A stretch of 36,672 nt of DNA, from positions 1-36,672 of the IMG/VR virus record IMGVR_UViG_3300037189_006675. The stretch is one strand, 5' to 3'. The position numbers and the translations under genes were made by a program. Source of the DNA: a virus. The notes under the pieces were generated by a model. It ran no database searches. It was given only the letters and a program-made list of their open reading frames with translations, and was not told the origin of the DNA. Shown here piece after piece: positions 1 to 17,014 of the stretch (within the stretch, counting starts at the first letter, position 1; each line of letters starts with the position of its first letter).

Positions 1-900
1 AAGGGTATGTATGATCGTCTTCGCCAGTCAATGGATGGGTATCCGACTAGCCGAGTCAAGGTTTTCCAACATGATCTAACGGCGCCTATTACGCCTGTAA
101 GCGCTAAAGAAATAGGAAAGATCGACTATGTACTTAATGTAGCTAGTCAATCCCATGTTGATCGCTCTATCGAAGAGCCGACGCCGTTTATTGTTAATAA
201 TGTGCAGCTTATCTGTAACTTGTTGGATTGGGCTCGTAATACCAATCTTGAAAAGTTTATTCATATCTCCACGGATGAGGTTTATGGGCCAGCCCCTGCT
301 GGACATGCTCACGTTGAGTGGCAAGATCTTCACCTTCCTAGCAATCCATACGCTGCTAGTAAGGCTGCTCAGGAGGATATTGCGTTTTCTTATTGGCGTA
401 CCTATGGGGTGCCATTAATTATCACTAACACGATGAACATCATCGGTGAGATGCAGGATCCTGAGAAGTTTATGCCCAAGACGCTTTTACGATCACTCAA
501 GGGTGAGACGATGGAGATTCATGCCTCTCCTTCGGGTGAGGTAGGCAGTCGGTTCTACCTCCATGCGAGGAACCAAGCTGATGCGTTGCTGTACATTCTT
601 AACAATATTGATGTAGATAACTACTCAGACACTATTGATCGCCCTAAGCGTTTTCATGTTGTTGGTGAGCGTGAGGTGGACAACCTTGAAATGGCGCAAA
701 TGATTGCATCTGCGGCAGGTAAAGAATTGAAGTACGAGTTGGTGGACTTCCACTCATCACGACCGGGGCATGACCTCAGATATGCCTTAGATGGAACCCT
801 TTTGGCGCAAGCTGGATGGAAAGCGCCAATCCCACTTGAAGAGTCCCTTGAACGTACTGTACGATGGACCCTTGACCATCCCGAATGGTTAAGTATTTAA
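1..900 (+). CDS. RmlB-like NDP-sugar 4,6-dehydratase (5'-truncated)
   Basis: Extended short-chain dehydrogenase of the dTDP-glucose 4,6-dehydratase type, expected to oxidise and dehydrate a nucleotide-activated hexose with bound NAD. Counting from the first visible Met (base 7), the signature STDEVYG is at residues 88-94 with the T-D-E catalytic set, and the YxxxK dyad is Y115/K119. SQSHVDRSIEEP near residue 48 matches the family's substrate loop. The reading frame is open to base 1 and the N-terminal GxxGxxG NAD-binding segment is missing, so the gene begins upstream of the window. It is followed 9 bases later by the next gene with a strong AAGGAG site. Other NDP-sugar epimerases or dehydratases of this superfamily are possible, but the TDE triad favours a 4,6-dehydratase. 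Confidence 0.85.
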   Translation, partial: KGMYDRLRQSMDGYPTSRVKVFQHDLTAPITPVSAKEIGKIDYVLNVASQSHVDRSIEEPTPFIVNNVQLICNLLDWARNTNLEKFIHISTDEVYGPAPAGHAHVEWQDLHLPSNPYAASKAAQEDIAFSYWRTYGVPLIITNTMNIIGEMQDPEKFMPKTLLRSLKGETMEIHASPSGEVGSRFYLHARNQADALLYILNNIDVDNYSDTIDRPKRFHVVGEREVDNLEMAQMIASAAGKELKYELVDFHSSRPGHDLRYALDGTLLAQAGWKAPIPLEESLERTVRWTLDHPEWLSI

Positions 901-909
901 GGAGAAATA

Positions 910-1158
910 ATGGCTAACAAGACGGTAGAAAATCCCTGTATTGGAACTGGAACACTTACTACTGATGCACCAGTAATAAAAAACGGCAAGACCTACGGCA
1001 AGTGCCCGCAATGCGATAAGCTGGTAAGCATTAACAAAGCCAATCGGCTCTCTCGCAAACACACTGGTGTTCACCAGCCCACATTGTGGGAAATTTTTGA
1101 GGAGGAAGATAATGACCGAAACCAAGCAAAAGGCCCTTACGGCAGCGGATCGCTGTGA
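910..1158 (+). CDS. Small cysteine-rich (zinc-binding?) protein
   Basis: 82 residues, not recognised. Contains C10 and a CPQC knuckle at residues 32-35, followed by a basic stretch and two histidines (H51, H55), so a single zinc site is likely. The C-terminus is acidic (EEEDND). The start is well set: AAGGAG lies 6 bases before the ATG, just after the stop of the dehydratase gene. Its last 47 bases overlap the next gene in another frame. It is probably cotranscribed with both neighbours. Similar short zinc proteins are common in actinophages, but no function can be assigned from sequence alone. Confidence 0.75.
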   Translation: MANKTVENPCIGTGTLTTDAPVIKNGKTYGKCPQCDKLVSINKANRLSRKHTGVHQPTLWEIFEEEDNDRNQAKGPYGSGSL

Positions 1159-1300
1159 TCGTTGTAACGCGCAAGCTTTCACCCACGCCAAGGGTATGAG
1201 CGGTAGTTTGTACTTCTGTGCCCACCACTTCATTAAGTGGGAAAAATCAATTCGTTCCTTTGCTTTCGAACTAATCGACGACCGCGACACGATCGATTAG
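1112..1300 (+). CDS. DUF7455-like small zinc protein
   Basis: 62 residues. The pattern DRCDRCNAQAF followed by LYFCAHHF matches the short actinobacterial DUF7455-type protein (CxxC then CxHH), which is found in actinobacterial chromosomes and their phages and has no established function. The ATG at 1112 was chosen because AGGAGGAAGATA lies directly before it; an earlier in-frame start would lengthen the overlap with the preceding gene and lacks such a site. The gene overlaps the previous one by 47 bases and ends 9 bases before a strong terminator. It is a useful lineage marker for an actinobacterial host. Confidence 0.8.
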   Translation: MTETKQKALTAADRCDRCNAQAFTHAKGMSGSLYFCAHHFIKWEKSIRSFAFELIDDRDTID

Positions 1301-1309
1301 TCGAATAGG

Positions 1310-1343
1310 AAAAGCCCCCCAGCAAATCTGCTGGGGGGCTTTT
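1310..1343. terminator. Bidirectional intrinsic terminator
   Basis: A 15-bp perfect stem, AAAAGCCCCCCAGCA paired with its complement, encloses a 4-base loop (AATC). Because the stem begins with AAAA and ends with TTTT, it works as a U-tract terminator in both directions. It sits between the converging rightward genes (ending at 1300) and the leftward ribonucleotide reductase gene (ending at 1352), which is where a shared terminator is expected. Confidence 0.93.
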
Positions 1344-1351
1344 CTGTGTCC

Positions 1352-3418
1352 TTATGCTTTGGGGACCTCACAAGCATCCGTGGTGCAGTAAGCCTCGCCC
1401 GCGGCATCCTTTGCCTTACCGGCATACACGCTAGACAGATCCAACGGCTTCATTTTCTTAGCTGCCTTGTTGTATTCGTCTTCGGTAATCTGCGTGTAAG
1501 GCATTTGTGGGTATGTCATGTTACCCATCGGCAAGAACGAGATAGTTTTTAACTGACCGTCCAACATGTGCAATACCGTACCGACATCCTTTTTCTCAGC
1601 CTCTGCATCAAACGACACGGTCACCGATACGCTGTTGTCAGACCAGTGGCGCTGGGCCATTGCTGCTAGTGATGCCTTCTCGTAGATGGACACGTCCTTC
1701 TCCGACCGCAATGCATCGGACTTAATCGGGAAGTAAACCACGGAAGTAGTATCCGGATCCGTCACGGACGATTCAACTGTATACCCAGCCTTCTTGAACA
1801 GCGGAACCATTGGATCGTCATTCGAAAATCGGATTGAACGCATGAAGAACTGACCACCCGGCGTCCAGTGCACGCCCGGGCTCTCGCCTGCAAGGATAGA
1901 TACGGTTCCCGATGGCTTCACGGTTGTGGTCTTAATGGACTCACGAATACCTAACCACTCGGAGTAGCTGCGATCATACTCTGCAACAGTACTGTAACCA
2001 GCGTCCATCCACTCGCGAAGTACGGAATTACCACGGCGGTCGCTAAAATTAGCAATGCCCGACATTGACGTACCGATGCGGCGATTACGCTGCATGATTG
2101 CATTTGTTTCTTCCCAATGGGTTGGTAGTAGGGTCACGGTCTTGGCATACAAATACGCAAACTTCAAAGTGCGCTTGTAATCTTCAATGTCATCGTGGCG
2201 GTTTAGGTAGGTCTCCACCAATGTGCAGCACTCGAAACTTTCAAGGGACTGCTCAGCGCAGGGGTTGTATCCGGCAGCTCGCCAATCCTTGTTGTTCGGG
2301 GCATCGATCAAACGACCGTATTTGCGGGTAACATCCATCCAGATAACGCCCGGCTCGCCGTTTAGGGCGATGTTGTCCACGATGTGGGAAAGGTCGTCGC
2401 CAACCTTGACCTCCACCGAATTATTGGACATCCAACCCCAACCCGGGGCTGTCGGGTCGTAAGAATTACGCTCAGGGTAACGCTCCGGGTTCTTCAAGTT
2501 GAGGAACACATCGTCTTTCAACCCGCCCATCAACAATTCGGCTGAACGGCGAACGTTACCTGAAACCACGCACACACCGATCAAATTACCAATATCAGCA
2601 ATATCTCGGGAATCCAGCTCTTGTCCACGGCGGCCTTCAAAAATCCCGCGGATTGCTGCGTGCAATTTAATAAGCGGCTCTGGGCCCGCCGCAGTTCCCC
2701 CGAAAGTTTTAATCGGAGTGCCTGCTGGTCGGATGTCGTCGTAGTTGAACGCAATGATTGACTGCGGTTCTACCCGCAGATAAGAATTGATAAGCAGACT
2801 AACGCTCTCTACCCAACCCTCACGGGTATCAGGGATACGGTGAAACACCGGAGACTCGGATGGGGACCCAATGATGAATCCCTTCTCCGCGCCCTTGGTG
2901 TCAAAACCAACGCCAACACCCAGCATGGATGCTTCCATCAAAAATGCAAACGGCTTGGCTGGGTTGTGACGGGTCATCTCCGCTGTGCTGACGAAAGAAC
3001 AGTTTTGGAGGGCAGCACTGTTGCGGTCTTCGTTGACAATCTTTGTGCCCATGATCCACAGACCACGGCCCGGAGGCGTCCATTTCAAATTGAACAAACG
3101 GTCAAAGGCTTCCTTGGCGGAACCCTGTGCCTTTTTCTCATTCCACGGCAATCGGTTAGTCTTGCACCAATCCTTCTGAATGGAATACATCCCGTTGATG
3201 ACGCGCTCACACACATCGACCCACGTCTCTTTCGTACCGTCATCTTTGATGCGGCTGTACGTACGGAGGAAAGTGATTTCACCTACCGAAACACCATTGG
3301 CGTCCTGATATCCCCACGGGACTTGCTTGCTCTGATAACTGTTTACAAACTCTTCTGAAAGCCTAAAAGAAAACACTCGAACCTCTTCGTTTTGTAGTTT
3401 GGACAATCTGTCTAGCAT
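1352..3418 (-). CDS. nrdJ: Class II (B12-dependent) ribonucleotide reductase, monomeric RTPR type
   Basis: 688 residues, close to the length of monomeric adenosylcobalamin-dependent ribonucleoside triphosphate reductase. The active-site segment NPCAEQSLESFECC places C387, E389 and C398 with the 11-residue spacing of the thiyl-radical and redox cysteines in Lactobacillus RTPR (C408/E410/C419). C140 in LQNCSF is the expected redox partner. The C-terminus ends in C678-x4-C683, the swinging thiol pair re-reduced by thioredoxin or glutaredoxin. It makes deoxynucleotides for phage DNA synthesis and implies that the host has cobalamin. The ATG at 3418 has no clear Shine-Dalgarno; a TAGTGT -10-like element about 14 bases upstream would allow a nearly leaderless transcript. 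It is the last gene of the leftward strand before the terminator. Confidence 0.93.
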   Translation of the reverse strand: MLDRLSKLQNEEVRVFSFRLSEEFVNSYQSKQVPWGYQDANGVSVGEITFLRTYSRIKDDGTKETWVDVCERVINGMYSIQKDWCKTNRLPWNEKKAQGSAKEAFDRLFNLKWTPPGRGLWIMGTKIVNEDRNSAALQNCSFVSTAEMTRHNPAKPFAFLMEASMLGVGVGFDTKGAEKGFIIGSPSESPVFHRIPDTREGWVESVSLLINSYLRVEPQSIIAFNYDDIRPAGTPIKTFGGTAAGPEPLIKLHAAIRGIFEGRRGQELDSRDIADIGNLIGVCVVSGNVRRSAELLMGGLKDDVFLNLKNPERYPERNSYDPTAPGWGWMSNNSVEVKVGDDLSHIVDNIALNGEPGVIWMDVTRKYGRLIDAPNNKDWRAAGYNPCAEQSLESFECCTLVETYLNRHDDIEDYKRTLKFAYLYAKTVTLLPTHWEETNAIMQRNRRIGTSMSGIANFSDRRGNSVLREWMDAGYSTVAEYDRSYSEWLGIRESIKTTTVKPSGTVSILAGESPGVHWTPGGQFFMRSIRFSNDDPMVPLFKKAGYTVESSVTDPDTTSVVYFPIKSDALRSEKDVSIYEKASLAAMAQRHWSDNSVSVTVSFDAEAEKKDVGTVLHMLDGQLKTISFLPMGNMTYPQMPYTQITEDEYNKAAKKMKPLDLSSVYAGKAKDAAGEAYCTTDACEVPKA

Positions 3419-3489
3419 AAGGGTGAGGAACTTACACTACACGCGGAAGCTTTGGCAAACGGCAGGTATGATTCCAATAGATGCACACT

Positions 3490-3510
3490 ACAACCTAGTT
3501 AATAGGTTGT
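3490..3510 (-). other. Short perfect stem-loop after a stop codon
   Basis: ACAACCTA and TAGGTTGT form a perfect 8-bp stem with a 5-base loop, starting 2 bases after the stop of the gene ending at 3513. There is no U-tract on the leftward strand, so it is not a classic terminator; it may be a weak terminator, an RNA 3'-end stabiliser or an operator for the downstream reductase gene. The remaining intergenic bases (3419-3489) hold no other clear signal. Confidence 0.5.
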
Positions 3511-3512
3511 CA

Positions 3513-4952
3513 TTACTCAAAATTGCGGTCGATAACTTCGTTTACAACCTCAGCATCTATGGTCTGAGGTAGTTCGCGTAAAACTTGGGCTCTTTCCCCG
3601 AAGATTTGAGACAGAACGCCCGCACCTGATGTGCGTCCTTCAAGGGTCATCTTAATGAATGATGATGAATCGTCCAATTCCTTGACCGTCTTGATCAACT
3701 TAAACAAACGATCAATTTCTTGACTTAAATTTGGGTCCGGGTATCCACCGTTCATTTCTTCAGAAAACCTTGCAAATGCTACTCTTTGGCCTTGCATTTC
3801 AATGATTGCATTGATCAATGCCTTGAGTTGATCCTTGGTTTTAATCTCCACTGGGAGTTTGAATGCACACATGTTATCTACCTTGAATGCGGGGCAGTTG
3901 GATGCCACGAAACAGGTATTGCACTGGCGCAATGATGTCGAACTAGATGTCAAAATAGGGACATCTTTGATGATATCCCGCCCCTCTTCATCCTGTTCAA
4001 CAACGGTCGAATTTTCTACCCCAAAGACCGGGAGGGTGGTCATTTCAGCAGGATTGCGCGGTTGAAGTTTCCGCATTCCAGACCCTGACCTATCAATATC
4101 AGAAGGGGTCATTTCCGCGCTTGTGCTCACCTGCATATCCGGCAAGTTATTAAATAGGTTGTCGTTACCGGATGACATAGATGACCTCAATTCGAATTGG
4201 TCGTATGACCAAGCTGCCAAACGACAAACTTCAACGTTGTCGTCTTCCATAATTTTATCGAAGTTCAGCCCAGCCTGCTCGTAGATCGCCTTGTATCTCG
4301 GTCGGGCTTGTTCTTTCATCCGGGACGGATACCGAACAATCTGATGGCCGTCCCATACAATTGTTTCACCCCGCATCATCGGAGAAAGCCAAGACATGGT
4401 GCTCACCGTGGTCCACGGGGCGTTTCTAAGGGTGTCTGGGCGGGCGTAGGAAACGGCGTGGACCTTTACCCCGTACTGATTGATAACGCCCCTCACCTTG
4501 GCTTCTATGGACGGATCGTTATCGATCAAACTACCGGGTAGGGCGATGTGCTTAAAGTTTTCTGCTGCCTTCAAGAAGTCTGCGTACGTGCTTCCGTTAG
4601 CATAAACCGGCCAGTACTTATCCTTCTCGTCGTCAAACGCCAAAGGGGTTTCTAAAGGAAAATCCAGCCCCATAAACGCGGTTACCCTGTCCATGTTTTG
4701 GGCAAGAAAATCCTCGTAATCGGCAACAAATTCGTTCAACTCTTCGGCGGACAAAACGGTCTTATCCGGGATGCCCGGGTATACATAAATATTCATCCAC
4801 TCTTCAAAATAATTTTTAAGAAGATAAGGCTTGTTTTTTGGCAGCCCTCGTTGACGAGCTCGCCAAAAGGAAAATCCAACATTTTTGATACTGACTGACT
4901 CAAGTATCTTGCGGTTAGAAGGTACTTCAGCACCTAAATGAATAATCTGCAT
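3513..4952 (-). CDS. Two-part protein: TGT/DpdA-like N-terminus plus cysteine-cluster C-terminus
   Basis: 479 residues. The first ~270 residues look like an alpha/beta barrel: an opening GAEVPSNR segment, then an IALPGS strand, and a stretch STMSWLSPMMRGE that resembles the SxxSW segment of phage DpdA/tRNA-guanine transglycosylase-like proteins. This resemblance is judged by eye and is not proven. The C-terminal ~150 residues begin with a C-x2-C-x5-C-x7-C cluster (QCNTCF to NMCAF), probably zinc or Fe-S, followed by a helical region. If TGT-like, it would exchange a base in DNA or tRNA for a deazaguanine. The start overlaps the upstream stop as TGATG, so translation is probably coupled. It lies between a HAD-like gene and nrdJ. 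A conserved actinophage protein of unknown function is the cautious call. Confidence 0.5.
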   Translation of the reverse strand: MQIIHLGAEVPSNRKILESVSIKNVGFSFWRARQRGLPKNKPYLLKNYFEEWMNIYVYPGIPDKTVLSAEELNEFVADYEDFLAQNMDRVTAFMGLDFPLETPLAFDDEKDKYWPVYANGSTYADFLKAAENFKHIALPGSLIDNDPSIEAKVRGVINQYGVKVHAVSYARPDTLRNAPWTTVSTMSWLSPMMRGETIVWDGHQIVRYPSRMKEQARPRYKAIYEQAGLNFDKIMEDDNVEVCRLAAWSYDQFELRSSMSSGNDNLFNNLPDMQVSTSAEMTPSDIDRSGSGMRKLQPRNPAEMTTLPVFGVENSTVVEQDEEGRDIIKDVPILTSSSTSLRQCNTCFVASNCPAFKVDNMCAFKLPVEIKTKDQLKALINAIIEMQGQRVAFARFSEEMNGGYPDPNLSQEIDRLFKLIKTVKELDDSSSFIKMTLEGRTSGAGVLSQIFGERAQVLRELPQTIDAEVVNEVIDRNFE

Positions 4953-5401
4953 CAGGCTCTTGGGTCTTCCCGGTAAAGGTCGTCTTGGCGATCCACTTCA
5001 GCTTGTAAATCCGCCCAACTTTTAATTCCTCTGGCTCCGTCTGGACGAAACTCTGGGCGAAAATATTTAGGGCTAAGGAATAAAATGGTAGTTAAACCTT
5101 GCTCAATAAGTTCTTTGGACAACTCCAAATCTGCGGTGACCACTAGGTCGATAGGGCCTTTAGAACGACAATGCTCAACTAACCGCAAATCACTATCAAT
5201 ATTTAGATCGTTAGCGGAAACGAGGTCGTCAATCTGTACAATTTTATTTTCCCGCAACCAAACTTCTGTACGCTCTTTGTGCCCACAAAGAATGAGGGCG
5301 CGGCGCTGGGCCTGTAAAGCCCTAAACAGCGCCACGCCCTGCGGCACTGGTGCGCCGGAGCTGTTACGCATGACCCCGTCCAGAAACACCAGTACGTTCA
5401 T
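4952..5401 (-). CDS. HAD-like (degenerate) phosphatase-fold protein
   Basis: 149 residues. It begins with a hydrophobic strand and FLDGVMRN, resembling HAD motif I, but the usual second aspartate (DxD) is missing: the sequence is D8-G-V. A later strand ILCGH resembles motif II and LVVTAD could be a further Rossmann-type strand. The family normally hydrolyses phosphoesters; with this altered motif it may be inactive or unusual. Translation is coupled on both sides: it starts 1 base after the glycosyltransferase stop and its TGA overlaps the next ATG. This neighbourhood with sugar- and nucleotide-active enzymes suggests, as inference only, a role with them. Confidence 0.5.
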   Translation of the reverse strand: MNVLVFLDGVMRNSSGAPVPQGVALFRALQAQRRALILCGHKERTEVWLRENKIVQIDDLVSANDLNIDSDLRLVEHCRSKGPIDLVVTADLELSKELIEQGLTTILFLSPKYFRPEFRPDGARGIKSWADLQAEVDRQDDLYREDPRA

Positions 5402-5402
5402 G

Positions 5403-6119
5403 TTACATCAGCTGCTCTAGGCCCGTACCCGCTTCATTTTGGGCTGCCCAAGCATCATACATAGGTTCTTCCAACCACATCATCTTGTGGTGCCCGGCGG
5501 TTGCACCAGTGTGTGCGTGAAGTTTGAACCCTGCGTCATTAATGCGGGATGAGAAGGTAAGGTCCTCAGACAACCAACGGTTTCCATTGATTGGGCCGTC
5601 TTGGAACCAGCACCAATCTCGGGTATCTTGGTTAGACATTTCACGAATTTTTTCCAAAACTGAACGGTGAATCAACAAATACGCTGCCCCACACGCTGAG
5701 ATTTCAACGATTGAATTCTTGGGGTAGTTGTCGTATGGAAGGATCCCGCCGTTATCTTGCGTAGAAAAAATTGCAGGGACTGGGCGCAATGACAGACCGT
5801 TCCACACAGCAGCAAACACAAGACCCGAAACAACAGGGCGTTTATTCTTATCCGCGGTCTGAACCAGTAGATCGAACGATGCCAACGGAACGCGCTGATC
5901 CGTGTCAATCATCAGCAGCCAATCCGCTGTGGCAGTATCCAAGAAATGCTTAATAGCAATATTACGGCTCTTGGACAGAAGCCCCGTACCTTCTACGCAG
6001 TGGTAGGAAGAAATACGGGAGGAACGCTGGCGCACGATTTCCATCAAGGACAAAGCAAATTCTGTGTCCACTACGACGTCGTGTGCCCATGCGATGGCGA
6101 TAGTTTCATTCTTTTGCAT
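5403..6119 (-). CDS. GT-A fold glycosyltransferase-like protein
   Basis: 238 residues. The core shows the GT-A pattern: SKSRNIAIKHFL, then the metal-binding DxD at D72-T-D74 (MIDTDQ), and a catalytic-loop-like SEDLTF at 184-189, followed by GHHK. It would transfer a sugar from a nucleotide donor to an unknown acceptor such as phage DNA, a virion protein or a host glycan. The ATG at 6119 was chosen because GGAG stands 6 bases before it; an upstream TTG at 6131 overlaps that site. It heads a tightly packed set with the HAD-like and TGT-like genes. The RmlB-like dehydratase at the left edge could supply its donor (inference). Confidence 0.75.
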   Translation of the reverse strand: MQKNETIAIAWAHDVVVDTEFALSLMEIVRQRSSRISSYHCVEGTGLLSKSRNIAIKHFLDTATADWLLMIDTDQRVPLASFDLLVQTADKNKRPVVSGLVFAAVWNGLSLRPVPAIFSTQDNGGILPYDNYPKNSIVEISACGAAYLLIHRSVLEKIREMSNQDTRDWCWFQDGPINGNRWLSEDLTFSSRINDAGFKLHAHTGATAGHHKMMWLEEPMYDAWAAQNEAGTGLEQLM

Positions 6120-6143
6120 ATTGTTCTCCAATTAGTGGATAGG

Positions 6144-6180
6144 GAGTGGGGCGAGGAACAGGAGGCGACTCGCCCCACTC
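6144..6180 (-). other. Perfect 12-bp intergenic stem-loop, possible terminator
   Basis: GAGTGGGGCGAG and CTCGCCCCACTC form a perfect, GC-rich 12-bp stem with a 13-base loop, in the 69-base gap between the endolysin stop and the glycosyltransferase start. No U-tract follows on either strand, so it may be a U-less terminator of the kind proposed for actinobacteria, or an RNA processing or stability element. The rest of the gap holds only the ribosome-binding site of the next gene. Confidence 0.6.
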
Positions 6181-6188
6181 AAAGTTAT

Positions 6189-6803
6189 TTACTTTTTGAT
6201 GGGTGCCGCGGGTGCTTCAGGCTTAACTGCTGGCTTGACCGTGGCGGTCACCTTGGCGATAACACTTGGCTTCTTGGTACCAGCGCCCGCACGAACACCA
6301 TTCTTGTCAATCTTCAACTCGGCAAGAATTTTGTTGATGTCAGCAACCGTGGTTCCGGGCTTCAATGCGTAGTGCATTGGATCCCAAGAATGTGAATCCT
6401 TGTAATCTCCACCCTTGGCCCTGTCGCCACCCCAGATGACAATCTTGTACCGCTTCTTAATCTCGGCACATGCCTTGATCTGGGCGTCATTCATAAAGAC
6501 CATGCCACCGTGAGGGCCCATAGCACCTTCGTGACCCCAGTTGAGATCAGCCGCCGTACCAGAACTGTGGTCCGAAAAGGCGCCGCCACCTTGACGAGCC
6601 TTGCGGTAGCAATAAACGGCGCACTCTCCGTTACGGAGTTTGGCAACCTCGTTGTTGTAGTCAGCCGCAAGCGCAAGAATCAAAGGAAGAAATTCCTTAC
6701 GCGCGCGTAGCTTGACATTCGTACCCGGAACAACGCCAACAGCGAGCTTCGGGTCGGACTGGCTGGTAAGTACTTCCCAACCATTGATGGACTTGTCGGT
6801 CAT
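6189..6803 (-). CDS. M15-family peptidase, probable endolysin
   Basis: 204 residues. The zinc-peptidase pattern of the M15 (VanY / L-Ala-D-Glu endopeptidase) group is clear: H79 and D86 in SDHSSGTAADLNW and H144 in SWDPMHYAL, with D141 at the place of the catalytic acid. It should cut peptide stems of peptidoglycan during host lysis. The last ~50 residues are Lys/Ala/Pro-rich and may form a flexible or wall-attracting tail. AAGGAG precedes the ATG, and its start overlaps the upstream stop (TAATG). No holin or other membrane-spanning gene is seen nearby, so a role in virion entry rather than lysis cannot be excluded. Confidence 0.85.
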   Translation of the reverse strand: MTDKSINGWEVLTSQSDPKLAVGVVPGTNVKLRARKEFLPLILALAADYNNEVAKLRNGECAVYCYRKARQGGGAFSDHSSGTAADLNWGHEGAMGPHGGMVFMNDAQIKACAEIKKRYKIVIWGGDRAKGGDYKDSHSWDPMHYALKPGTTVADINKILAELKIDKNGVRAGAGTKKPSVIAKVTATVKPAVKPEAPAAPIKK

Positions 6804-7747
6804 TATTCTCCTTGGTTCAGGTATTTACTGGCTGCTCGCCGGAGCAACACGCTTGCATCTGGTAAGTCTACTCCATATTTTTCGGAGTATTCGATACTTT
6901 TAAGATTTTTTGAAGTGCTTTTTAGCATCTTTAACGCTTGAATAATTCCGGACTCTTTGCCCGCTTGCCAACGGTAATTGGTAAAGTCTTCATACCCTTC
7001 TCCTGTAGGGCTAAAGGCGTGGCTGCGGTTTTCGTGAATCTCATCAAACAATGCTGCGCCCTGTTGAATTGTGTGGCTGAGCATGACTTCCGCGTTGCGT
7101 CGGGCGGCATCATGCGGGGCAACTTTTAGTTCTTGCAAATGGCGCTTATATCGGTCAGTAATTTCATACGCTTTTTGAATATCCTGCTGAACAACCTGAT
7201 CCCACTCGGGTCGGCGTTGCACATTGTCCTCGCGTGGCTCAACCGTCCAGTTGTCGTGTGTCAAAGAATAAGCTGCGTAGGGTTTGATATCGCGGATATC
7301 GGATTTAACGTTGGCGTAAAACGTTAGATCAAAAGAACCAAGATAGTCTTCAGTTTCAGGGTGCAAAACAGTATTGAATACGTCATTGACTTCACTGGCA
7401 ATATCCTGATTACTAAACCCTGTGTAGTTAGGGTTCATTTGACGAAAAACTGGATAATCAATTCCAACTAAGCAATCTAAATCAGCGGGGTCTCTGTGAG
7501 CGTACCAATGGTAGGAAACACCAGAACCAGCTAACCAAACTTCTGCCCAGTTTTCGGCCCCGTGAAATTTATTGTTAAGTGCGTTAAGCGCTAACGACAT
7601 CACAGAATTACGCACAGATGGGGTAAGTTTTTTCCCTTGGAACAAACGTGGATCTAATCCTGCGGCAGAAGGACTGAAATAAGAAGTTTCAGAACTCTCA
7701 ATATCTACAGGGTAAGCCTGACGAAGTAGTGCTTTGTAATAGTTCAT
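6803..7747 (-). CDS. Nucleotidyltransferase-fold protein
   Basis: 314 residues. LAGSG at 72-76 followed by DLD at 89-91 and a third acidic residue at D140 in the strand GSFDLTF is the GS...DxD...D pattern of the polymerase-beta nucleotidyltransferase superfamily. Members transfer NMP groups to proteins, RNA or small molecules. The C-terminal half is helical and charged. The gene overlaps both neighbours by 1-4 bases, so it is cotranslated with the small gene upstream and the endolysin downstream. Whether it acts on a nucleotide, a tRNA or a host protein cannot be read from the sequence. Confidence 0.7.
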   Translation of the reverse strand: MNYYKALLRQAYPVDIESSETSYFSPSAAGLDPRLFQGKKLTPSVRNSVMSLALNALNNKFHGAENWAEVWLAGSGVSYHWYAHRDPADLDCLVGIDYPVFRQMNPNYTGFSNQDIASEVNDVFNTVLHPETEDYLGSFDLTFYANVKSDIRDIKPYAAYSLTHDNWTVEPREDNVQRRPEWDQVVQQDIQKAYEITDRYKRHLQELKVAPHDAARRNAEVMLSHTIQQGAALFDEIHENRSHAFSPTGEGYEDFTNYRWQAGKESGIIQALKMLKSTSKNLKSIEYSEKYGVDLPDASVLLRRAASKYLNQGE

Positions 7748-7950
7748 TGCGGTTCAGGATTTCCTTGGAGTTTTATTTTTTTAGAGTAAGTGCTTGAATC
7801 TTCTTTTTCAGGCAATCGCGCAACAAAACCGCAGCTCACATGCGCGTTGACGTACCTGTGGATAAGTACCCAAACAGCGTTGTACTGGTCTTCATTGCTG
7901 ACCTCTATTTGGATAGCGGCCCCGCACAAGCAAACCATGTCAAATAGCAT
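7744..7950 (-). CDS. Small protein of unknown function
   Basis: 68 residues, not recognised. It has CLCG near the N-terminus and a single Cys in HVSCGF further on, so metal binding is possible. The C-terminus is polar and charged. The ATG at 7950 has only a distant AAGGA; a second in-frame ATG at 7938 is possible. Its end overlaps the nucleotidyltransferase start by 4 bases (ATGA). The 63 bases upstream contain a TACAAT element that could be a promoter -10 and a TTGTAC/GTACAA inverted pair, both weak. Confidence 0.6.
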   Translation of the reverse strand: MLFDMVCLCGAAIQIEVSNEDQYNAVWVLIHRYVNAHVSCGFVARLPEKEDSSTYSKKIKLQGNPEPQ

Positions 7951-8013: not shown

Positions 8014-8559
8014 TTAGTTGTACAGGCCCTTCTTAGTGAAGGCTTTCTTTTGGACATGGGACTTGACAGGGCAAAAATCGCACAAATAAACCTTGGGCCC
8101 AGACGTACCGGGGCGGTCCAACCCAGCATCCTTGCGTTCCGCAGCGGTATCCGGTTTTAGAAGCTTACGCTCTGACTTGTAATCCCCGCAGTCTTCTTTG
8201 GGTCGATTATGCTGCGACCAGCAAGTCATGGCATCTTCGGCAAAAGTCATGCGGGTGCTGTAAAAATTAGTACCAAAAACATCCAGACCTTCAGAACCAC
8301 CGTGGATCTGCTTAATGATCTCTTCGCGTACCTTGGGAACCACCCAATATTTTACGGGGAACTTAAAAAGAAGCCCGATATGAGGTTGAGGTTTTTGGTG
8401 CAACCCAACTGTTAGGTTGAGCATCACATCATCAGCCGGGTTGCCTTCGTAATCGGGCATTTCGTCAATTGACTTACACGTACGGCACACAAGAATACGA
8501 ATTTGCGGTTCATTCTCATCTGTTTTTGACGAGTATTTACTCAAATCGATAGGGCTCAT
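8014..8559 (-). CDS. Conserved cysteine-rich protein, unknown function
   Basis: 181 residues. Two CxxC knuckles, CRTC near residue 25 and CDFC near the C-terminus, plus central cysteines in MTCWSQHNRPKEDC, suggest two structural zinc sites. The segment between them is alpha/beta with no recognised catalytic motif. From memory, similar proteins with the EDAMTCW and YLCDFCPVKS segments occur in many actinophages, but without assigned function. AGGA stands 7 bases before the ATG. The stop is followed by 63 non-coding bases. Confidence 0.75.
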   Translation of the reverse strand: MSPIDLSKYSSKTDENEPQIRILVCRTCKSIDEMPDYEGNPADDVMLNLTVGLHQKPQPHIGLLFKFPVKYWVVPKVREEIIKQIHGGSEGLDVFGTNFYSTRMTFAEDAMTCWSQHNRPKEDCGDYKSERKLLKPDTAAERKDAGLDRPGTSGPKVYLCDFCPVKSHVQKKAFTKKGLYN

Positions 8560-8606: not shown

Positions 8607-8683
8607 CTGCAGGTAGGCAAATTGGTGACGCCGCCAGTCTTATAAACTGGGTCGATATGTGGGTTCAAGCCCCACCCTGCGAA
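8607..8683 (+). tRNA. tRNA-Ile (anticodon UAU)
   Basis: A cloverleaf folds on the rightward strand: D-arm GGC/GCC (8616-8632) with GG in the loop, anticodon stem CCAGT/ACTGG (8634-8650) around loop CTTATAA, T-arm GTGGG/CCCAC (8659-8675) with loop TTCAAGC, and U8-A9 between acceptor and D-arm. The anticodon is UAU, reading AUA. The acceptor stem CTGCAGG/CCTGCGA has one C-A mismatch and one T-G pair at its end, and the variable loop is 8 bases, longer than the usual 4-5. CCA is not encoded. It lies opposite to all neighbours and ends against the stop codon of the leftward gene at 8684. Confidence 0.7.
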
Positions 8684-10132
8684 CTAGCGAGATCCGTCTT
8701 GCGTACCCTGCTGCAGAGCTGAACTACGGCTAACTCGGGCCTCAGCACCAACCGTGCCCGGCTTACTTTCCGCGGCTCCAGCAGACTCAAGTGTAAGGGT
8801 ACGACCACCACCAGCAGCTTGCTTTTTAGCAAGGGCTTCAATCACCATTTGGCGGTGGAACGTAGGATCTGACTTTAGGCGGTCTACAATTTGAGCCTTC
8901 TGCGCCATGGGGTTGACAACCTCAGTAGCAGCCGCCGGGGCTTTACCAGCAGCAGCCTGCTGAGCCTGATTAATGTCAAAGGTTTGGGCCGCGGTCGGTT
9001 GAATTGGTCCGCGGCGGTGTTCTCTACAGCCTGCGCCAGAGCGTTCAATGTTTGCACAACCATGCTCGTCGCAAGTATCTACATCCACATCTGGGTAACT
9101 GTGCGCAGCGCCGATGTTGTGGTAAGCAGATTTCAACTTCTCAATTGTATCGGACCACAGGCCTAGTTCCTTGGCATTGCGCAAGTGATGAAGAGCCGAG
9201 TGCTGTAGCCAACGAGCAGTGTGAAAAGTTTTTTCGGCGTTATCGCTGTATTTAGGCAAAGTCGTGTACGTTTCGGCCATTGCCTTGGTAACGTCGGTAG
9301 CTTCCTTTGGAAGACTGCGGCGCTCGGCCTTGGGCGTACCCTCAGCAACTTCGGCCAAACGGCTTCCGTGAGCCAACACATCCTCAACTGAAGCGCGTGT
9401 GCGGGGGTTCATTGCACGAGCGTGAGCAGCCGCATCATCAGCAATGTGGGGGTTATGGGCTTCCTCGACCGCGGCAGCAGCCGGATCTTCTGCTTTAAAC
9501 CACGTACCAAGCATTTTCTTTTGGCCCAATGACTGTACGTCAGGGGCGCTTGCAACTTGTGGTGCAGCCCTGTACATACCAACGCTGCCCTTAGAGCGAG
9601 GTGGCTGCGTATTAGTGCGCATAACTCTTGCGACATACTTTGCTTCTTGCTCTTTGGAAATGTTTTCGTGCTGTTCTTTAGTGATTTCTTCACCGGTATC
9701 TGGGTGAAAGTAGGTCTCTTCGGCGCCTTCCCCTTCGGAAGGCTTTACCTGCCTCTTGATTGTGTAAGCCCCACCACGCGGGTTCTTTGATACGGCAATT
9801 TTGCGGTAACCCGGCAACCAACTACCAATCGACTCCGGGTCGTGACCAAGACCAGACAGGTGTTCTTTTAAAGCGCCCACATGTTCATCAGGCTTGAGCT
9901 CACCATCGAGCGCACGCTCGTGGGTATTCGTGATGAAGTCCCTAGACGCAGCCTCATGCTCAGTACCCGAAGTTACGCGCGTGATTGCTTCGTTTAACGA
10001 CGCAAGAGTGCGGTGATGTACACGAGCGTCTTCTTCAACACGAGCTGCTTGAGCCCGCTTTTCTGCCGGGGACATGCCCATAGCGTTTTCAGAAACATCG
10101 ACGCGTGAGTTTCGGGTTGTGCGCTTAGCCAT
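8684..10132 (-). CDS. Alanine-rich protein of unknown function, possible virion component
   Basis: 482 residues, strongly polar and rich in Ala, Glu, Lys, Arg and His, with long predicted helices and low-complexity stretches at both ends. A possible metal site (DTCDEHGC and AGCREH) lies around residues 355-375. No catalytic motif is seen. AAGGAAAAGTA directly precedes the ATG. It is the last gene of a set of small unrecognised genes with similar, His- and Arg-rich composition, which would suit internal virion or DNA-associated proteins, but that is inference only. Confidence 0.8.
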   Translation of the reverse strand: MAKRTTRNSRVDVSENAMGMSPAEKRAQAARVEEDARVHHRTLASLNEAITRVTSGTEHEAASRDFITNTHERALDGELKPDEHVGALKEHLSGLGHDPESIGSWLPGYRKIAVSKNPRGGAYTIKRQVKPSEGEGAEETYFHPDTGEEITKEQHENISKEQEAKYVARVMRTNTQPPRSKGSVGMYRAAPQVASAPDVQSLGQKKMLGTWFKAEDPAAAAVEEAHNPHIADDAAAHARAMNPRTRASVEDVLAHGSRLAEVAEGTPKAERRSLPKEATDVTKAMAETYTTLPKYSDNAEKTFHTARWLQHSALHHLRNAKELGLWSDTIEKLKSAYHNIGAAHSYPDVDVDTCDEHGCANIERSGAGCREHRRGPIQPTAAQTFDINQAQQAAAGKAPAAATEVVNPMAQKAQIVDRLKSDPTFHRQMVIEALAKKQAAGGGRTLTLESAGAAESKPGTVGAEARVSRSSALQQGTQDGSR

Positions 10133-11289: not shown

Positions 11290-11829
11290 TCAACTCCAAG
11301 CCGGTTTAAAACGACGCAACTGCGCCGCTCGTTTTTCATCGATTTGACCCGGTTCATTGGCACGCATATTGGCTTTACCGTCGTTTACCAGATGCGGTGG
11401 AGGAACCATGTCAAACTGAGGGGCGTAACGGGAAGTCACGTATGCGTTCCCGTCATAAGATGCCCGCATTTGGCGGCGAATACCTCGGTCGGCACGCAAA
11501 GAGTCCGGGTAGTAATACCCTTGAGGGTCTACCCGCTCACCTCGGTGAACGCCGCGTTGGTATGACTTTTGACCGATGCGAACTTTAAGGCTGTCCAGTA
11601 CTTTTTCGGACGCACTGTTTGGTCGCCCACGGTCATCTCGACGGGTACGAATAGTACCTAAATAACCATCTGGGTATTCAGCAGAAGGTTCGCGGCCCAC
11701 ACCCATGCGCAGAAAATCCAGCTCAGAACGCGCAATAGGAACACCACCACCCCCGTAGGTGGTGTTCGTGTCGTACATACCTCCCGCGCCGAGGTACTGC
11801 ACATTTTGATGCGGACTGCTGCCTGCCAT
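11290..11829 (-). CDS. Protein of unknown function, Arg/Tyr/Gly-rich
   Basis: 179 residues, with many Arg, Tyr, Gly and Pro and little hydrophobic core. Not recognised; composition is similar to its downstream neighbours and may point to a virion or nucleic-acid-associated role. A perfect 10-bp inverted repeat (11739-11767) lies inside the coding region near the start. A TAAAAT element stands 6 bases before the ATG, the spacing seen for leaderless transcripts in actinobacteria; AGAGGT touches the ATG and is too close to be a normal binding site. Confidence 0.7.
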   Translation of the reverse strand: MAGSSPHQNVQYLGAGGMYDTNTTYGGGGVPIARSELDFLRMGVGREPSAEYPDGYLGTIRTRRDDRGRPNSASEKVLDSLKVRIGQKSYQRGVHRGERVDPQGYYYPDSLRADRGIRRQMRASYDGNAYVTSRYAPQFDMVPPPHLVNDGKANMRANEPGQIDEKRAAQLRRFKPAWS

Positions 11830-11867: not shown

Positions 11868-13070
11868 TTAACGAGTGGTCGTAAGAACGCAAATATCTTG
11901 GCGTGGATCAAGACCTTCGCCAACAGTGAACGTCAACAACCCCGGCGTGCCGTCCCAACCAGCTCGATCACGAAACCACGCAGAACCCGGATCGGTGGTA
12001 GGGGCCTGCATCCACACACGCTCACCAATATCGCGAATTTGGAAATGGTGATAATGACCAGAAAGCCATACATCTGCCATTCCCAAAGCCGTTTGACCTG
12101 TTGCCTGACCGCTCAGGTACTTAACTACATCTCGGCTGAACTGGTGGCCATGAAACAACCCCAGCAAAGTGCCACAAACATCGACAGTAAGTGTTTGATG
12201 GCTTTTTTCAGGGTACCGAAATACTACGTGCTCCAACGCATCGTTTTCAGCGCAGATGTCTTGCACTTGGCTGGCAATTTCTACATTCCAACCGTCAGAA
12301 GGATCCACAGAAACTTGGCGGGTAACTTCATCATGATTACCGTTAACCACGGCAACAATTAACTCGTCGCACAGAGAAGCAAAAACTTTGATCTGCTGCA
12401 AAAGAAGGCGACGAGCAACTCGTACTTGTTCCGTCTGTCCCAAATCCGACGCCGATTGGCTTTGCAATTTTCCGGCTTGGCTGGTGTTACCTTCCACGTG
12501 ATCACCAAGTAACGCAAGGACAATAGTGTCAAGCTTTCTTCCAACTTTGCGAAGGTCTTTCAACCGATGAATGGCGCGGTCGGTAAGTTCAAGAATGCGT
12601 TCTACAGATTCTTTAGTTCCTTGATTGGCAACTTTTTTACCCAATTGCTGGTCACTCAACGCCATGACATAAGCACCTTCGCCATAACCGCCGTCATATG
12701 ATTTAGATGGTTTCCATTTGGATACAAGATGCTTCAGATCTTCAATGTCTTTGTCAGAAACAACATTTTTATTCGGTACCAGACTCAGGCGGTAGGAAAC
12801 CAGCCACTCCTCATCCCAACGCTGCCAACGAGACATACGAACATTGGTGACGGACCACTCTTCAGGATTGAGCCCAAAATCCTTCATGATGGCTTGAGCA
12901 TCGTAGCCGTTAGTATCAGACTGAGGACGGCTAACTACAAAACCACCGTTATCCATATCTACATCTAAGCGAGGGCGCCATTTTTCATCGGGGTATTGGA
13001 TACGGGTATCAGAACCCATTTCGCCGGGTTCCACAAGCTTTTTCAAAGTTTCTTCTAATGACTCAGACAT
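11868..13070 (-). CDS. Calcineurin-like metallophosphoesterase
   Basis: 400 residues. The middle and C-terminal parts carry the family motifs in order: ALSDQQLG (a variant of DxH), LLGDHVEG (GDxxE), VNGNHDE (GNHD), FHGHQF and SGHYHHFQ (GHxH). These residues bind two metal ions and cleave phosphoesters. Replacement of the first DxH histidine by Gln is a variation worth noting. The first ~120 residues are a separate charged domain. The ATG at 13070 overlaps the upstream stop as TAATG; an upstream ATG would overlap that gene further. A role in DNA processing is plausible but the substrate is unknown. Confidence 0.85.
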   Translation of the reverse strand: MSESLEETLKKLVEPGEMGSDTRIQYPDEKWRPRLDVDMDNGGFVVSRPQSDTNGYDAQAIMKDFGLNPEEWSVTNVRMSRWQRWDEEWLVSYRLSLVPNKNVVSDKDIEDLKHLVSKWKPSKSYDGGYGEGAYVMALSDQQLGKKVANQGTKESVERILELTDRAIHRLKDLRKVGRKLDTIVLALLGDHVEGNTSQAGKLQSQSASDLGQTEQVRVARRLLLQQIKVFASLCDELIVAVVNGNHDEVTRQVSVDPSDGWNVEIASQVQDICAENDALEHVVFRYPEKSHQTLTVDVCGTLLGLFHGHQFSRDVVKYLSGQATGQTALGMADVWLSGHYHHFQIRDIGERVWMQAPTTDPGSAWFRDRAGWDGTPGLLTFTVGEGLDPRQDICVLTTTR

Positions 13071-13339
13071 TATGCGCTCTTTTGGCAAGAGCAATGACCG
13101 CTCAGGTGATACTTAAACGACGTAAGGCTGAAAGGGACGGGCAAACCGTTGGCTATTGCGTTTTCCTTGATGGACATGTAGGTCCTGTGAGTGGATGCTA
13201 ATTTGTTTTTAACAATCGTGTTAATGCTGTCTTCAATCTTCTGGCCGTCAGGCTGTTGTGCAAACCAGCGTTTAATGGCACAACCATTAAGGGCAAACTC
13301 ACCCGACTCAAGTCGTTGCAGCTCTTCTAACAGTTTCAT
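13070..13339 (-). CDS. Small protein, possible helix-turn-helix
   Basis: 89 residues, mostly helical. The segment from CAIKRWF to SFKYHLSGHC could form a helix-turn-helix DNA-binding unit, and the C-terminus has CSC plus two histidines. Not assigned to a family. GTGGAGGTTTT before the ATG is a strong binding site, and a promoter with TTGACT and TACTGT lies just upstream after a terminator, so this is the first gene of a transcription unit with the metallophosphoesterase. Confidence 0.7.
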   Translation of the reverse strand: MKLLEELQRLESGEFALNGCAIKRWFAQQPDGQKIEDSINTIVKNKLASTHRTYMSIKENAIANGLPVPFSLTSFKYHLSGHCSCQKSA

Positions 13340-13376
13340 AAAACCTCCACAGTTAGTCTACAGCTATCGTAGTCAA

Positions 13377-13406
13377 ACAGTAGCACCAACCAACGGTGAT
13401 AGTCAA
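13377..13406 (-). promoter_or_regulatory. Putative promoter
   Basis: On the leftward strand TTGACT (5 of 6 to the -35 consensus) and TACTGT (TAnnnT) are separated by 18 bases. The element follows a strong terminator and precedes, by about 37 bases, an ATG with a strong binding site. A second TTGACTA copy lies nearer the gene but lacks a well-spaced -10. The position between two transcription units supports it more than the match itself. Confidence 0.5.
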
Positions 13407-13427
13407 CTTAGGGGTAGGTGTCAAAAA

Positions 13428-13455
13428 CAAAAAACCCCCCTCAAAAGAGGGGGGT
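13428..13455 (-). terminator. Intrinsic terminator
   Basis: A 9-bp perfect stem (ACCCCCCTC/GAGGGGGGT) with an AAAA loop is followed on the leftward strand by a run of T. It lies 15 bases after the stop of the gene at 13470 and closes the long early transcription unit. Confidence 0.93.
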
Positions 13456-13469
13456 CTTGTGGGGAATGG

Positions 13470-13781
13470 CTAGTTGCGGTCAGCCTCACCAGAGTCAAAC
13501 TCAAACATGGATGAGCGGTTGATGCTGGAAGGAAGAATACGACCATGTGCTTGCAAAGCACCGGCTTCATGAGCAATAGCTGGCGCCACTGACACGCTAG
13601 TGCGGTACCCGGCACCCATACGCTCACCAAGAACTTGGCGGGTTGCTGTGTGAGGCATAAGAGCGGGGTCTTGTGCTTTGATGGCGTGCTTGGCCATAGC
13701 CATCTCGTACGGAGAATTTTCAGCCGAAGGGTATGAAATATTCATGTCCGGCTTGGCGCCGGGCAGCGGAGCAATTGGCAC
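13470..13781 (-). CDS. Protein of unknown function
   Basis: 103 residues, Ala-, Pro- and Ser-rich, with no recognised domain. The start codon is GTG at 13781, preceded at 5 bases by a full AGGAGG, the strongest binding site in this part of the window, so high expression is likely. It is the last gene before the terminator at 13428-13455. It follows the SpoVS-like gene after 46 non-coding bases. Its composition is similar to the unrecognised proteins at 8684-11829. Confidence 0.75.
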   Translation of the reverse strand: MPIAPLPGAKPDMNISYPSAENSPYEMAMAKHAIKAQDPALMPHTATRQVLGERMGAGYRTSVSVAPAIAHEAGALQAHGRILPSSINRSSMFEFDSGEADRN

Positions 13782-13827
13782 AAGGACCTCCTAAGTCTTA
13801 CTAATAGGATAGAGGGTTTATAACTTT

Positions 13828-14106
13828 TTAGTGGGCCAAAACCGTAAAAACAATGGCGCTAATTTGACCGTCGTGGCTCTCAATGCTAGCGAAACCGGGA
13901 ACGCACATAAGATCCAACCCGCGGGGAGCTGTATATCCTCGGGCAATAGCAATAGCTTTAACTGCTTGGTTCACCGCTCCGGCGCCCACGGCGCGGATTT
14001 TGCAGGATCGGTGCTCATAGATGCTGTGGGCAATTGCAGATGCCACAGATTGGGGGTTACTGCTGGCGCTCACCCGCAGAATTTGTTCGTCTGGTGTGTC
14101 GGACAT
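13828..14106 (-). CDS. SpoVS-like protein
   Basis: 92 residues. The run ILRVSASSNPQSVASAIAHS, then AVGAGAVNQAVKAIAIARGY and the following LDLMCVPGF, matches the SpoVS family across its length; in Bacillus SpoVS affects sporulation and the fold is Alba-like, suggesting nucleic-acid binding. The ATG at 14106 was chosen because GAGGTAATA precedes it; a longer frame from 14154 would run through the putative promoter. It has its own TATAAT element and an inverted repeat upstream, so it may be regulated apart from the genes before it. A role in acting on host gene control is inference. Confidence 0.85.
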   Translation of the reverse strand: MSDTPDEQILRVSASSNPQSVASAIAHSIYEHRSCKIRAVGAGAVNQAVKAIAIARGYTAPRGLDLMCVPGFASIESHDGQISAIVFTVLAH

Positions 14107-14126
14107 TATTACCTCGTTGTGGTGTA

Positions 14127-14151
14127 TTAGGTTCCCGTACCTAAAATTATA
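14127..14151 (-). promoter_or_regulatory. Putative promoter -10 with downstream inverted repeat
   Basis: TATAAT (14146-14151) on the leftward strand matches the -10 consensus fully, but no good -35 is at the right distance. Directly downstream is TTAGGT-ACGGGA-ACCTAA (14127-14144), a 6-bp inverted repeat at the expected transcription start. It could be an operator or a short 5' hairpin for the SpoVS-like gene. Confidence 0.45.
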
Positions 14152-14168
14152 CACACAACTAAAGATAA

Positions 14169-14456
14169 TTAGTGGTCGTCACAAGTTTCTTCAGTAGGGC
14201 AACATTCGTTCTTGGGAATATATCCATCTGGCATAGCTGGCAAAGTAGGAGTTGTGGCTAGGCTGCCGCAATTAGCGCACTCCATATCTAGATAGTGGTA
14301 AACCATTTCGTAATCTTCAAAGACGCATTTAACGTTCCAAACAAAACATCCGCACACACAAACATGTGTAGGTTCCCCTCGGAGATCCATAGCTTTGTCA
14401 TAGTTTTCCGGCTTCAAATCGATGATGGGGCGGTCATGCCCGAAATTTGATGTCAT
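14169..14456 (-). CDS. Small zinc-binding-like protein
   Basis: 95 residues with eight cysteines: CVCGC and KCVF in the first half, ECANCG in the middle and CC plus C at the end. A zinc ribbon formed by the CxC and CxxC pairs is likely. No enzymatic motif is seen. It starts inside the end of the RuvC-like gene (23-base overlap), where GGAG stands 7 bases before the ATG. Function unknown. Confidence 0.75.
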   Translation of the reverse strand: MTSNFGHDRPIIDLKPENYDKAMDLRGEPTHVCVCGCFVWNVKCVFEDYEMVYHYLDMECANCGSLATTPTLPAMPDGYIPKNECCPTEETCDDH

Positions 14457-14994
14457 CTAATTTCTCCAAAGTATCTTTCTCGTATTGGGTATCGCCAAGT
14501 TTAGCAGCAATTCGAGCCAAAGCGTAAGAGTCGGCGGCGTTGTCGTCTGTGAACTCCACGTTCCACTTCTTGTAGATATGCAGAAGCATCTGGTTCTTTT
14601 GTACCCCTGTACCTTTGCCCGTGACGTACTTCTTTAGGTTAGTTGGGGGAACAAGCAGGGCTCGAATGCCGAACGTGTCAAATATATGGAGCTTGACCAT
14701 GCCACCCAACTCCCCGAGCATGTTGGCCATCTGGCTTCCAAAGGCGTAGCCTTCCATAACAAATTCAGAGTAGTTGTAATCAGCCACGAGGTTCTCGTCA
14801 AGAAACTTCTGTAAGTTATACAGCCGCTCAACTCCCGTTCCGGAAGCCTTGGCTACGGCAGTGTGGTAGTTTCCATCCTTATTCATGAAGGTAATAGCAA
14901 ACCCCGAATAAGACTGGTCAATACCAACAAACACAGGCTTAGAACTGTCGAAACCTGCCCCGAAGTACTTGACTGTGTAACCCTTGTTGATCAT
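14434..14994 (-). CDS. RuvC-like Holliday junction resolvase
   Basis: 186 residues with the RNase H-like RuvC pattern: strand FVGIDQSYSGFAIT with D26, E81 in FVMEGYAFGS, and an acidic pair D151/D155 in DDNAADSYALARI. These residues bind two metals and cut four-way or branched DNA, needed to resolve recombination intermediates before packaging. The length is close to bacterial RuvC. It overlaps the upstream PD-(D/E)XK gene by 4 bases (ATGA) and lies in the recombination part of the operon. Confidence 0.88.
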   Translation of the reverse strand: MINKGYTVKYFGAGFDSSKPVFVGIDQSYSGFAITFMNKDGNYHTAVAKASGTGVERLYNLQKFLDENLVADYNYSEFVMEGYAFGSQMANMLGELGGMVKLHIFDTFGIRALLVPPTNLKKYVTGKGTGVQKNQMLLHIYKKWNVEFTDDNAADSYALARIAAKLGDTQYEKDTLEKLDDIKFRA

Positions 14995-15491
14995 GAGTTA
15001 TACCTATACGAGTCTGAGTTCTCCATATTAATGTAAGCATTATTTCTGATGATGGTCCCGCCGTTAACTGTCCGCTGGGTTTCAGAAGCTTCGACTCTAT
15101 AAGGGGCAGTCAGGTAGCCTCGGTCATCGCAGATCATCTTGACCAATAATCGGTCATTAGGAACCAGATACAGAAAACCGTAAAGAGGGACGCAAAGTTC
15201 AGTGGCTAAATGGCGGGCTCGATTGATTTTCTCCTCCGTCACCAGCCAATCTCCGCCATAGTTCTCGAACAATTCTCTGTATCGCATATTGCGGCATTTG
15301 CTCTCGACAACTCCAACAATAATATTGTTTTTTAGCAGAAAGCCGTCAACAACTGCGGGGGAGTCTTTTTTGGTTTCCGCAAATTTGTGCCCGTGAGGAT
15401 TGAGGTCTTCGTAGATTTGGATGGCACGTTCTTCTTGCTTGAGCGTCGCCTGACCTTTGGCGGTCTTAATATCGAGAGAAATATAATTCAT
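14991..15491 (-). CDS. PD-(D/E)XK-type nuclease-like protein
   Basis: 166 residues. The N-terminal half carries the core of a restriction-like nuclease: E20/E21 in a helix, D49 in VVDGF and the E63-S-K65 triad in VGVVESKCRN. The C-terminal half is beta-rich and ends with a polar tail. This suggests cleavage of DNA in recombination, repair or host DNA breakdown; the exact target is unknown. It overlaps both neighbours by 4 bases, and the gene order nuclease-RuvC supports a DNA processing role. Confidence 0.68.
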   Translation of the reverse strand: MNYISLDIKTAKGQATLKQEERAIQIYEDLNPHGHKFAETKKDSPAVVDGFLLKNNIIVGVVESKCRNMRYRELFENYGGDWLVTEEKINRARHLATELCVPLYGFLYLVPNDRLLVKMICDDRGYLTAPYRVEASETQRTVNGGTIIRNNAYINMENSDSYRYNS

Positions 15492-16857: not shown

Positions 16858-17014
16858 TTTTAGGTTTGAACGGGTAGTCAGTTTTCGTTTTGAATTTTGG
16901 TCCAATTGATTTGTCCTTAGTGTTTTCGGAGAGTTTCTCAACACAACGGTGTTCGCGACCTCGCCACCAAATACCGCATTCAGTGCACTTGACGGGTTTA
17001 TTTTCGTCCAGCAT
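16814..17014 (-). CDS. Small zinc-finger-like protein
   Basis: 66 residues. KCTECGIWWRGREHRC is a compact zinc knuckle with two Cys, a His and a further Cys, followed by a long basic tail rich in Lys and Pro. The start is supported by GAGGA 8 bases before the ATG, and it overlaps the end of the WhiB gene by 17 bases. It also overlaps the possible N-terminal extension of the Cas4-like frame; the binding site and the zinc motif argue that this frame is the translated one. Function unknown. Confidence 0.68.
   Translation of the reverse strand: MLDENKPVKCTECGIWWRGREHRCVEKLSENTKDKSIGPKFKTKTDYPFKPKSAWGPDDDVRYHRS

Follow-up and report, generated by a model that had tools for sequence, protein, structure and literature searches.

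A conserved NT-HAD-DpdA gene cassette of actinobacterial myophages carries DpdA homologues lacking the DpdA active site

Introduction

The DpdA protein of phage 9g inserts dPreQ0/dG+ into DNA (Hutinet et al. 2019, PMC6884629), and for phages that carry dpdA alone it has been suggested that the hosts may supply preQ0 (PMC6884629). DpdA is related to tRNA-guanine transglycosylase (TGT), in which Asp280 is the residue that attacks the ribose while Asp102 assists in forming the product, and the eukaryotic enzyme includes a non-catalytic subunit, QTRT2, whose catalytic Asp residues are replaced and which is kept as a partner (PMC6165067). Here we compare with these systems a locus found in a viral DNA stretch of 36,672 bases (IMG/VR record IMGVR_UViG_3300037189_006675; the whole stretch is hereafter the window), a fragment of a virus record whose left end lies inside a gene for an RmlB-like sugar dehydratase. 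The conserved unit of this locus is a cassette of three genes, encoding a nucleotidyltransferase (NT)-fold protein, a haloacid dehalogenase (HAD)-like protein and a DpdA/TGT-like protein, placed at the end of the lysis region in a large clade of actinobacterial myophages. Its novelty lies in a fixed gene set whose DpdA homologues have lost the active site of that enzyme. Within the literature that was open to search, which did not take in most subscription papers or any bioRxiv preprint, no paper on the unit was found.

A fixed three-gene cassette

By scanning viral contigs six times and genome contigs once, we collected about 350 loci, in which some contigs recur; adjacency was counted only over loci with distinct DpdA sequences and sufficient flanking sequence. 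The HAD gene adjoined the DpdA gene in all 198 distinct loci, and the NT gene preceded the pair in 191 of them. Counting in the reverse direction, every NT locus held both HAD and DpdA (106/106) and every HAD locus held DpdA (172/172). The HAD and DpdA reading frames share 4 or 1 nt in 121 of 217 loci, and in the window their junction reads TGATG, the DpdA-like gene starting inside the HAD stop codon.

The trio is carried by freshwater actinophages, by the Streptomyces BS-cluster myophages BRock and GiJojo (the latter a BS-cluster myovirus of the same group as BRock; PMC11465772) and by Streptomyces and Nonomuraea genomes, where it lies in stretches with phage-type genes that we read as prophages. 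Because the window holds a WhiB gene (16998-17306) and a SpoVS-like gene, and given the nature of these relatives, its host is most likely an actinobacterium. A homologue of NT was also met at positions 2909-3769 of a 3.8-kb contig of a beta-proteobacterial metagenome-assembled genome, perhaps a phage contig binned there. At seven loci (L274, L280, L281, L292, L305, L308 and L319) HAD and DpdA occur with no NT on the contig, and in most of them the place near HAD is taken by a small conserved protein (about 130 aa). A defence-system role was rejected, since PADLOC gave no match.

The three proteins of the cassette

The DpdA-like protein (479 aa; 3513-4952, minus strand) belongs to phrog_887, which PHROGs names queuine tRNA-ribosyltransferase (6e-45, against 2e-147 for the BRock protein). 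A profile of 43 relatives aligned with phage 9g DpdA at an hhalign E value of 7.9e-6, and the AlphaFold (AF2) model shows a confident barrel over residues 1-260; by these three lines of evidence the protein has a TIM-barrel domain homologous to that of TGT and DpdA. Foldseek of the model against the PDB returned generic TIM barrels only and no TGT, and sequence searches of the PDB with the DpdA-like, HAD and neighbouring glycosyltransferase (GT) alignments gave no useful match. In the C-terminal part a C-x2-C-x5-C-x8-C cluster (residues 340-366) is kept except in the type represented by loci L163-L167; residue 95 is E or D in 98.6% of the family and Gly in the window's own protein; and for the BRock copy there is a weak match (E 0.006) to a family of terminase small subunits.

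The TGT-type barrel and the VHGFG/SSW region can be aligned with phage 9g DpdA, but the residues expected to act in catalysis differ. Phage 9g retains FLDSG and SCDSSSW, the Asp residues of which probably represent the catalytic pair of TGT, whereas the window has VYPG and TVSTMSW. The nucleophile (Asp280 of bacterial TGT) falls on Ser184, and among 211 distinct relatives this position is occupied by Ser (147), Ala (47), Thr (11), His (4), Leu (1) or Gly (1), and by Asp in none. A separate alignment to the mycobacteriophage-type DpdA (phrog_1279) places the Asp on Ser184 as well, so that the two alignments agree on the nucleophile position. The second catalytic residue (Asp102 of bacterial TGT, in LDSG of 9g) corresponds to Tyr58; it is kept in 88 of the 211 relatives (lost in about 58%) and is otherwise His, Tyr, Asn or others, with retention in the Streptomyces and Nonomuraea members (VDSG in Streptomyces) and loss in most freshwater members. 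A further difference from 9g is the genomic setting, a preQ0 gene cluster in that phage, while 20 relatives of the present locus lack both QueC and FolE. Since the catalytic Asp is missing in every relative, base exchange by this family is not supported. The DpdA-like protein is best seen as a maintained protein that should be unable to perform the known base exchange. The name given to its Borockvirus counterparts (BRock gp36 and GiJojo gp181), which are of the same family and stand in the same trio order, implies an activity that the residues do not support.

The phrog_1279 proteins, singleton DpdA of actinophages, are distant homologues in which Asp stands at the alignment position of the Ser; they differ in keeping DSGG and DSM-x-W, in their length (about 258 aa) and in having no Cys/helical C-terminal part. 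One Streptomyces prophage (L162) holds a second, canonical-looking DpdA of this type, with Asp kept, at 1792-2568, 9 kb from the disarmed one. With QTRT2 the DpdA-like protein shares the membership of the TGT family and the lack of the catalytic Asp, but QTRT2 partners a catalytic TGT, whereas here the constant partners are HAD-like and NT proteins. A general heterodimer with a canonical DpdA, on the model of QTRT1/QTRT2, was rejected as phrog_1279 occurred in only 4 of 26 records; an earlier search for it in 20 records had been empty, though run without a positive control.

The HAD-like protein (149 aa; 4952-5401, minus strand) has likewise lost its nucleophile. Its first motif reads VFLDGV in the window and xFhDGVL in the family, and at the position of the nucleophile in HAD motif I, DxDx(T/V), F, Y, T and other residues are found, with Asp in 0 of 161 aligned sequences; the second Asp/Glu of the motif is kept in 158 of 161. 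The profile search gave no significant HAD match, and hhalign returned a weak one (E 0.006) to the C-terminal phosphatase half of the BRock polynucleotide kinase.

The NT-fold protein (314 aa; 6803-7747, minus strand) carries the motif GS-x13-DxD followed by a third acid (G74-S75, D89, D91 and D140), corresponding to the pol-beta-like signature of hG(G/S), (D/E)h(D/E)h and a third acid. In 206 distinct relatives G74, S75, D89 and D91 are invariant and the third acid is D or E. In the AF2 model (pLDDT 87) the strand order fits the NT fold and the motifs lie on the expected strands; among the closest viral models in Foldseek was a 'Polymerase, nucleotidyl transferase domain containing protein' (2.7e-7). 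No significant family was found in Pfam, PHROG or NCBIfam. Judged by these residues, the protein looks active. No kinship with the nucleotidyltransferase gp110 of BRock was found.

A proposed function

The observations to be accounted for are the linkage and overlap of the genes, the loss of two catalytic nucleophiles and the intact acidic triad of NT. Because DpdA and HAD are without key residues while an intact NT is nearly always beside them, the cassette probably has a role different from the known 7-deazaguanine modification of DNA. The explanation we favour, with slightly less than even confidence, is that the trio consists of a TGT-derived, non-exchanging nucleic-acid-binding protein and a pseudo-HAD, usually served by an active NT, and that it is part of neither a 7-deazaguanine nor a sugar-base pathway. 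The DpdA-like barrel and the HAD-like protein would pair up as a non-exchanging nucleic-acid binder, by analogy with the QTRT2 subunit, and in most phages NT would perform the actual reaction, a nucleotide transfer onto nucleic acid or an associated substrate. The ribonucleotide reductase (RNR), RmlB and Nmad1 genes of the window lie outside the unit.

Several points weigh against this proposal. Ser184, Tyr58 and the loss of catalytic residues were assigned by sequence-profile alignment, without a superposed structure, and the acids E9, E196 and E241 of the DpdA-like family, conserved at the barrel ends, could form a new active site or serve another chemistry. The HAD assignment of the 149-aa protein is weak, and Foldseek of the NT model against the PDB gave no significant match. 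Adjacency alone is weak evidence for a joint function, because the genomes of the clade are collinear overall, and nucleic acid is suggested as a target solely by homology. Moreover, nine HAD-DpdA locus records, including four from contigs 100 kb or more in length, have no NT, a distribution that takes about six independent changes to explain on the tree of DpdA; NT can therefore not be the sole activity. A search for NT in the contigs of these loci was empty, although it had no positive control of its own, and no replacement NT was recognised when the region upstream of HAD was read by eye. The NT-less lineages are one of the main weaknesses of the proposal.

Alternative explanations

The protein might instead be a divergent DpdA that still acts enzymatically on a DNA or tRNA base, with a relocated catalytic acid and a base scavenged from the host or the environment. 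It retains the DpdA-type His (H165, in 200 of 211 relatives), an SW motif in which W188 is invariant, and G195/T197; the barrel-end acids named above could provide the relocated residue, the LDSG Asp persists in 88 sequences, and the host supply of preQ0 considered for dpdA-only phages could apply here too. On the other hand, the residue at the nucleophile position has changed about 20 times, between S, A, T, H, L and G, and most freshwater members have lost the second Asp as well. The synthesis genes for preQ0 give no support either: neither QueC nor FolE turned up in 20 related records, among them the complete genomes of BRock and GiJojo, in searches whose controls worked and which covered these two and not QueD or QueE, the window itself being a fragment. 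When another set of 26 records was searched, QueC exceeded the cut-off only in host chromosomes, and of the seven actinobacterial genomes carrying the trio three gave no match to it. A divergent DpdA of this kind is on the whole unlikely.

It may also be that the three genes travel together with the collinear genome of the clade and have unrelated functions. The window is broadly collinear with Streptomyces phage BRock, with which it shares the order tail/baseplate, replication, RuvC, SpoVS, lysis, NT, HAD, DpdA; it holds a baseplate J gene and a RecA-PolA-DnaB replication block, and a SpoVS-like gene (13828-14154) lies, like the WhiB-like gene, within the phage replication region. The homologues of SpoVS, of RuvC and of the genes at 11290-11829 and 8014-8559 are conserved in order just as the trio is. 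However, RNR, the gene at 7744-7950, GT and the M15 gene come and go, whereas HAD and DpdA never part and mostly overlap, and this inseparability is stronger evidence of linkage than adjacency is. Synteny as the full explanation is accordingly a rather improbable one. The window also encodes a tRNA-Ile with anticodon TAT (8607-8684, plus strand), opposite in strand to the genes around it.

Neighbouring genes and the wider module

The earlier note had listed for the left 8 kb an RmlB-like dehydratase, a GT-A glycosyltransferase, an NT-fold, a HAD-like and a TGT/DpdA-like protein around a class II RNR, and had joined them, with a DUF1599 gene elsewhere, into one possible nucleotide-sugar or base-modification module. 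All the named genes are indeed there by profiles or motifs (NT and HAD without a significant profile match), but the list overlooked an M15 lysis gene and the opposite strand of RmlB: the truncated RmlB-like gene lies on the plus strand, and the RNR, DpdA-like, HAD-like, GT-A, M15 endolysin-like and NT-like genes on the minus strand. Of the module, the NT-HAD-DpdA unit stood, and in relatives the other genes were carried independently of the trio, which was the outcome that the note itself had named as fatal to the wide version.

The RNR (1352-3418, minus strand) belongs, as had been suggested, to class II and is an ordinary ribonucleoside-triphosphate reductase (RTPR), scoring 351 bits against TIGR02505 (9e-105; curated cut-off 340); it is a neighbour outside the core, downstream of the trio in 84 of 110 loci and elsewhere in the genome of BRock. 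The RmlB-like gene (1-900, plus strand, 5' truncated) matches Pfam Epimerase (7e-33) and GDP_Man_Dehyd (4e-32) over the cut-off and phrog_540 (5e-69), with the TDE motif as STDEVY and YxxxK as YAASK, and occurs in 2 of 110 loci. It is complete (336 aa) in the near-identical contig L002, which extends the window leftward; at 13012-16090 of that contig the full RmlB gene shares its strand with another epimerase gene and two GT-like genes that lie next to it. RmlB is therefore assigned to a distinct sugar cassette, which runs on the strand opposite to the trio and continues in that contig. The DUF1599 (Nmad1) gene was found, as stated, in the replication operon (25033-25317, minus strand; 5e-8), and with presence near the trio in 18 of 110 loci it is not linked.

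The GT-A gene (5403-6131, minus strand; phrog_34859 3e-32, Pfam GT2 below cut-off) is accessory, being present in 27 of 217 loci. Its relatives lie inside the cassette, between NT and HAD, in every locus where the position is visible, which made a core membership attractive; this was dropped, as the tree needs only a single gain, and GT joined the cassette later, in one clade. The M15-type peptidase/endolysin-like gene (6189-6803, minus strand; phrog_1512 3e-9, Pfam M15_4 3e-4, below cut-off) lies within the interval, yet in only 8 of 195 loci, and is not a member. Just upstream of the trio, a Cys-rich conserved protein of 181 aa and no known family (8014-8559, minus strand) is encoded in 193 of 195 informative distinct loci and is a possible fourth member of the unit.

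That RmlB, GT, NT, HAD, TGT and RNR together make a glycosylated or otherwise modified base is thus very improbable, the confinement of GT to the cassette being its one favourable sign against the rarity and separate setting of RmlB, the one gain of GT and the independence of RNR and Nmad1, and a full sugar/base pathway was rejected on these co-occurrence counts.

Implications for actinobacterial phages

In databases these proteins appear as queuine tRNA-ribosyltransferase or dpdA-like, labels from which 7-deazaguanine in phage DNA is predicted; a DpdA-like family of the phrog_887 type should not count as evidence of it. A bolder possibility, to which we give a small chance, is that the disarmed TGT barrel and the disarmed HAD target nucleic acid on which the attached NT, with GT in one clade, makes a previously undescribed modification; if true, the trio would be a new kind of phage nucleic-acid machine. 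The cassette has been retained throughout a large actinobacterial phage clade that includes isolates on laboratory Streptomyces, and its strictly paired TGT-derived and HAD-like couple, with a near-constant and intact NT, offers a testable case of a base-exchange family in another use.

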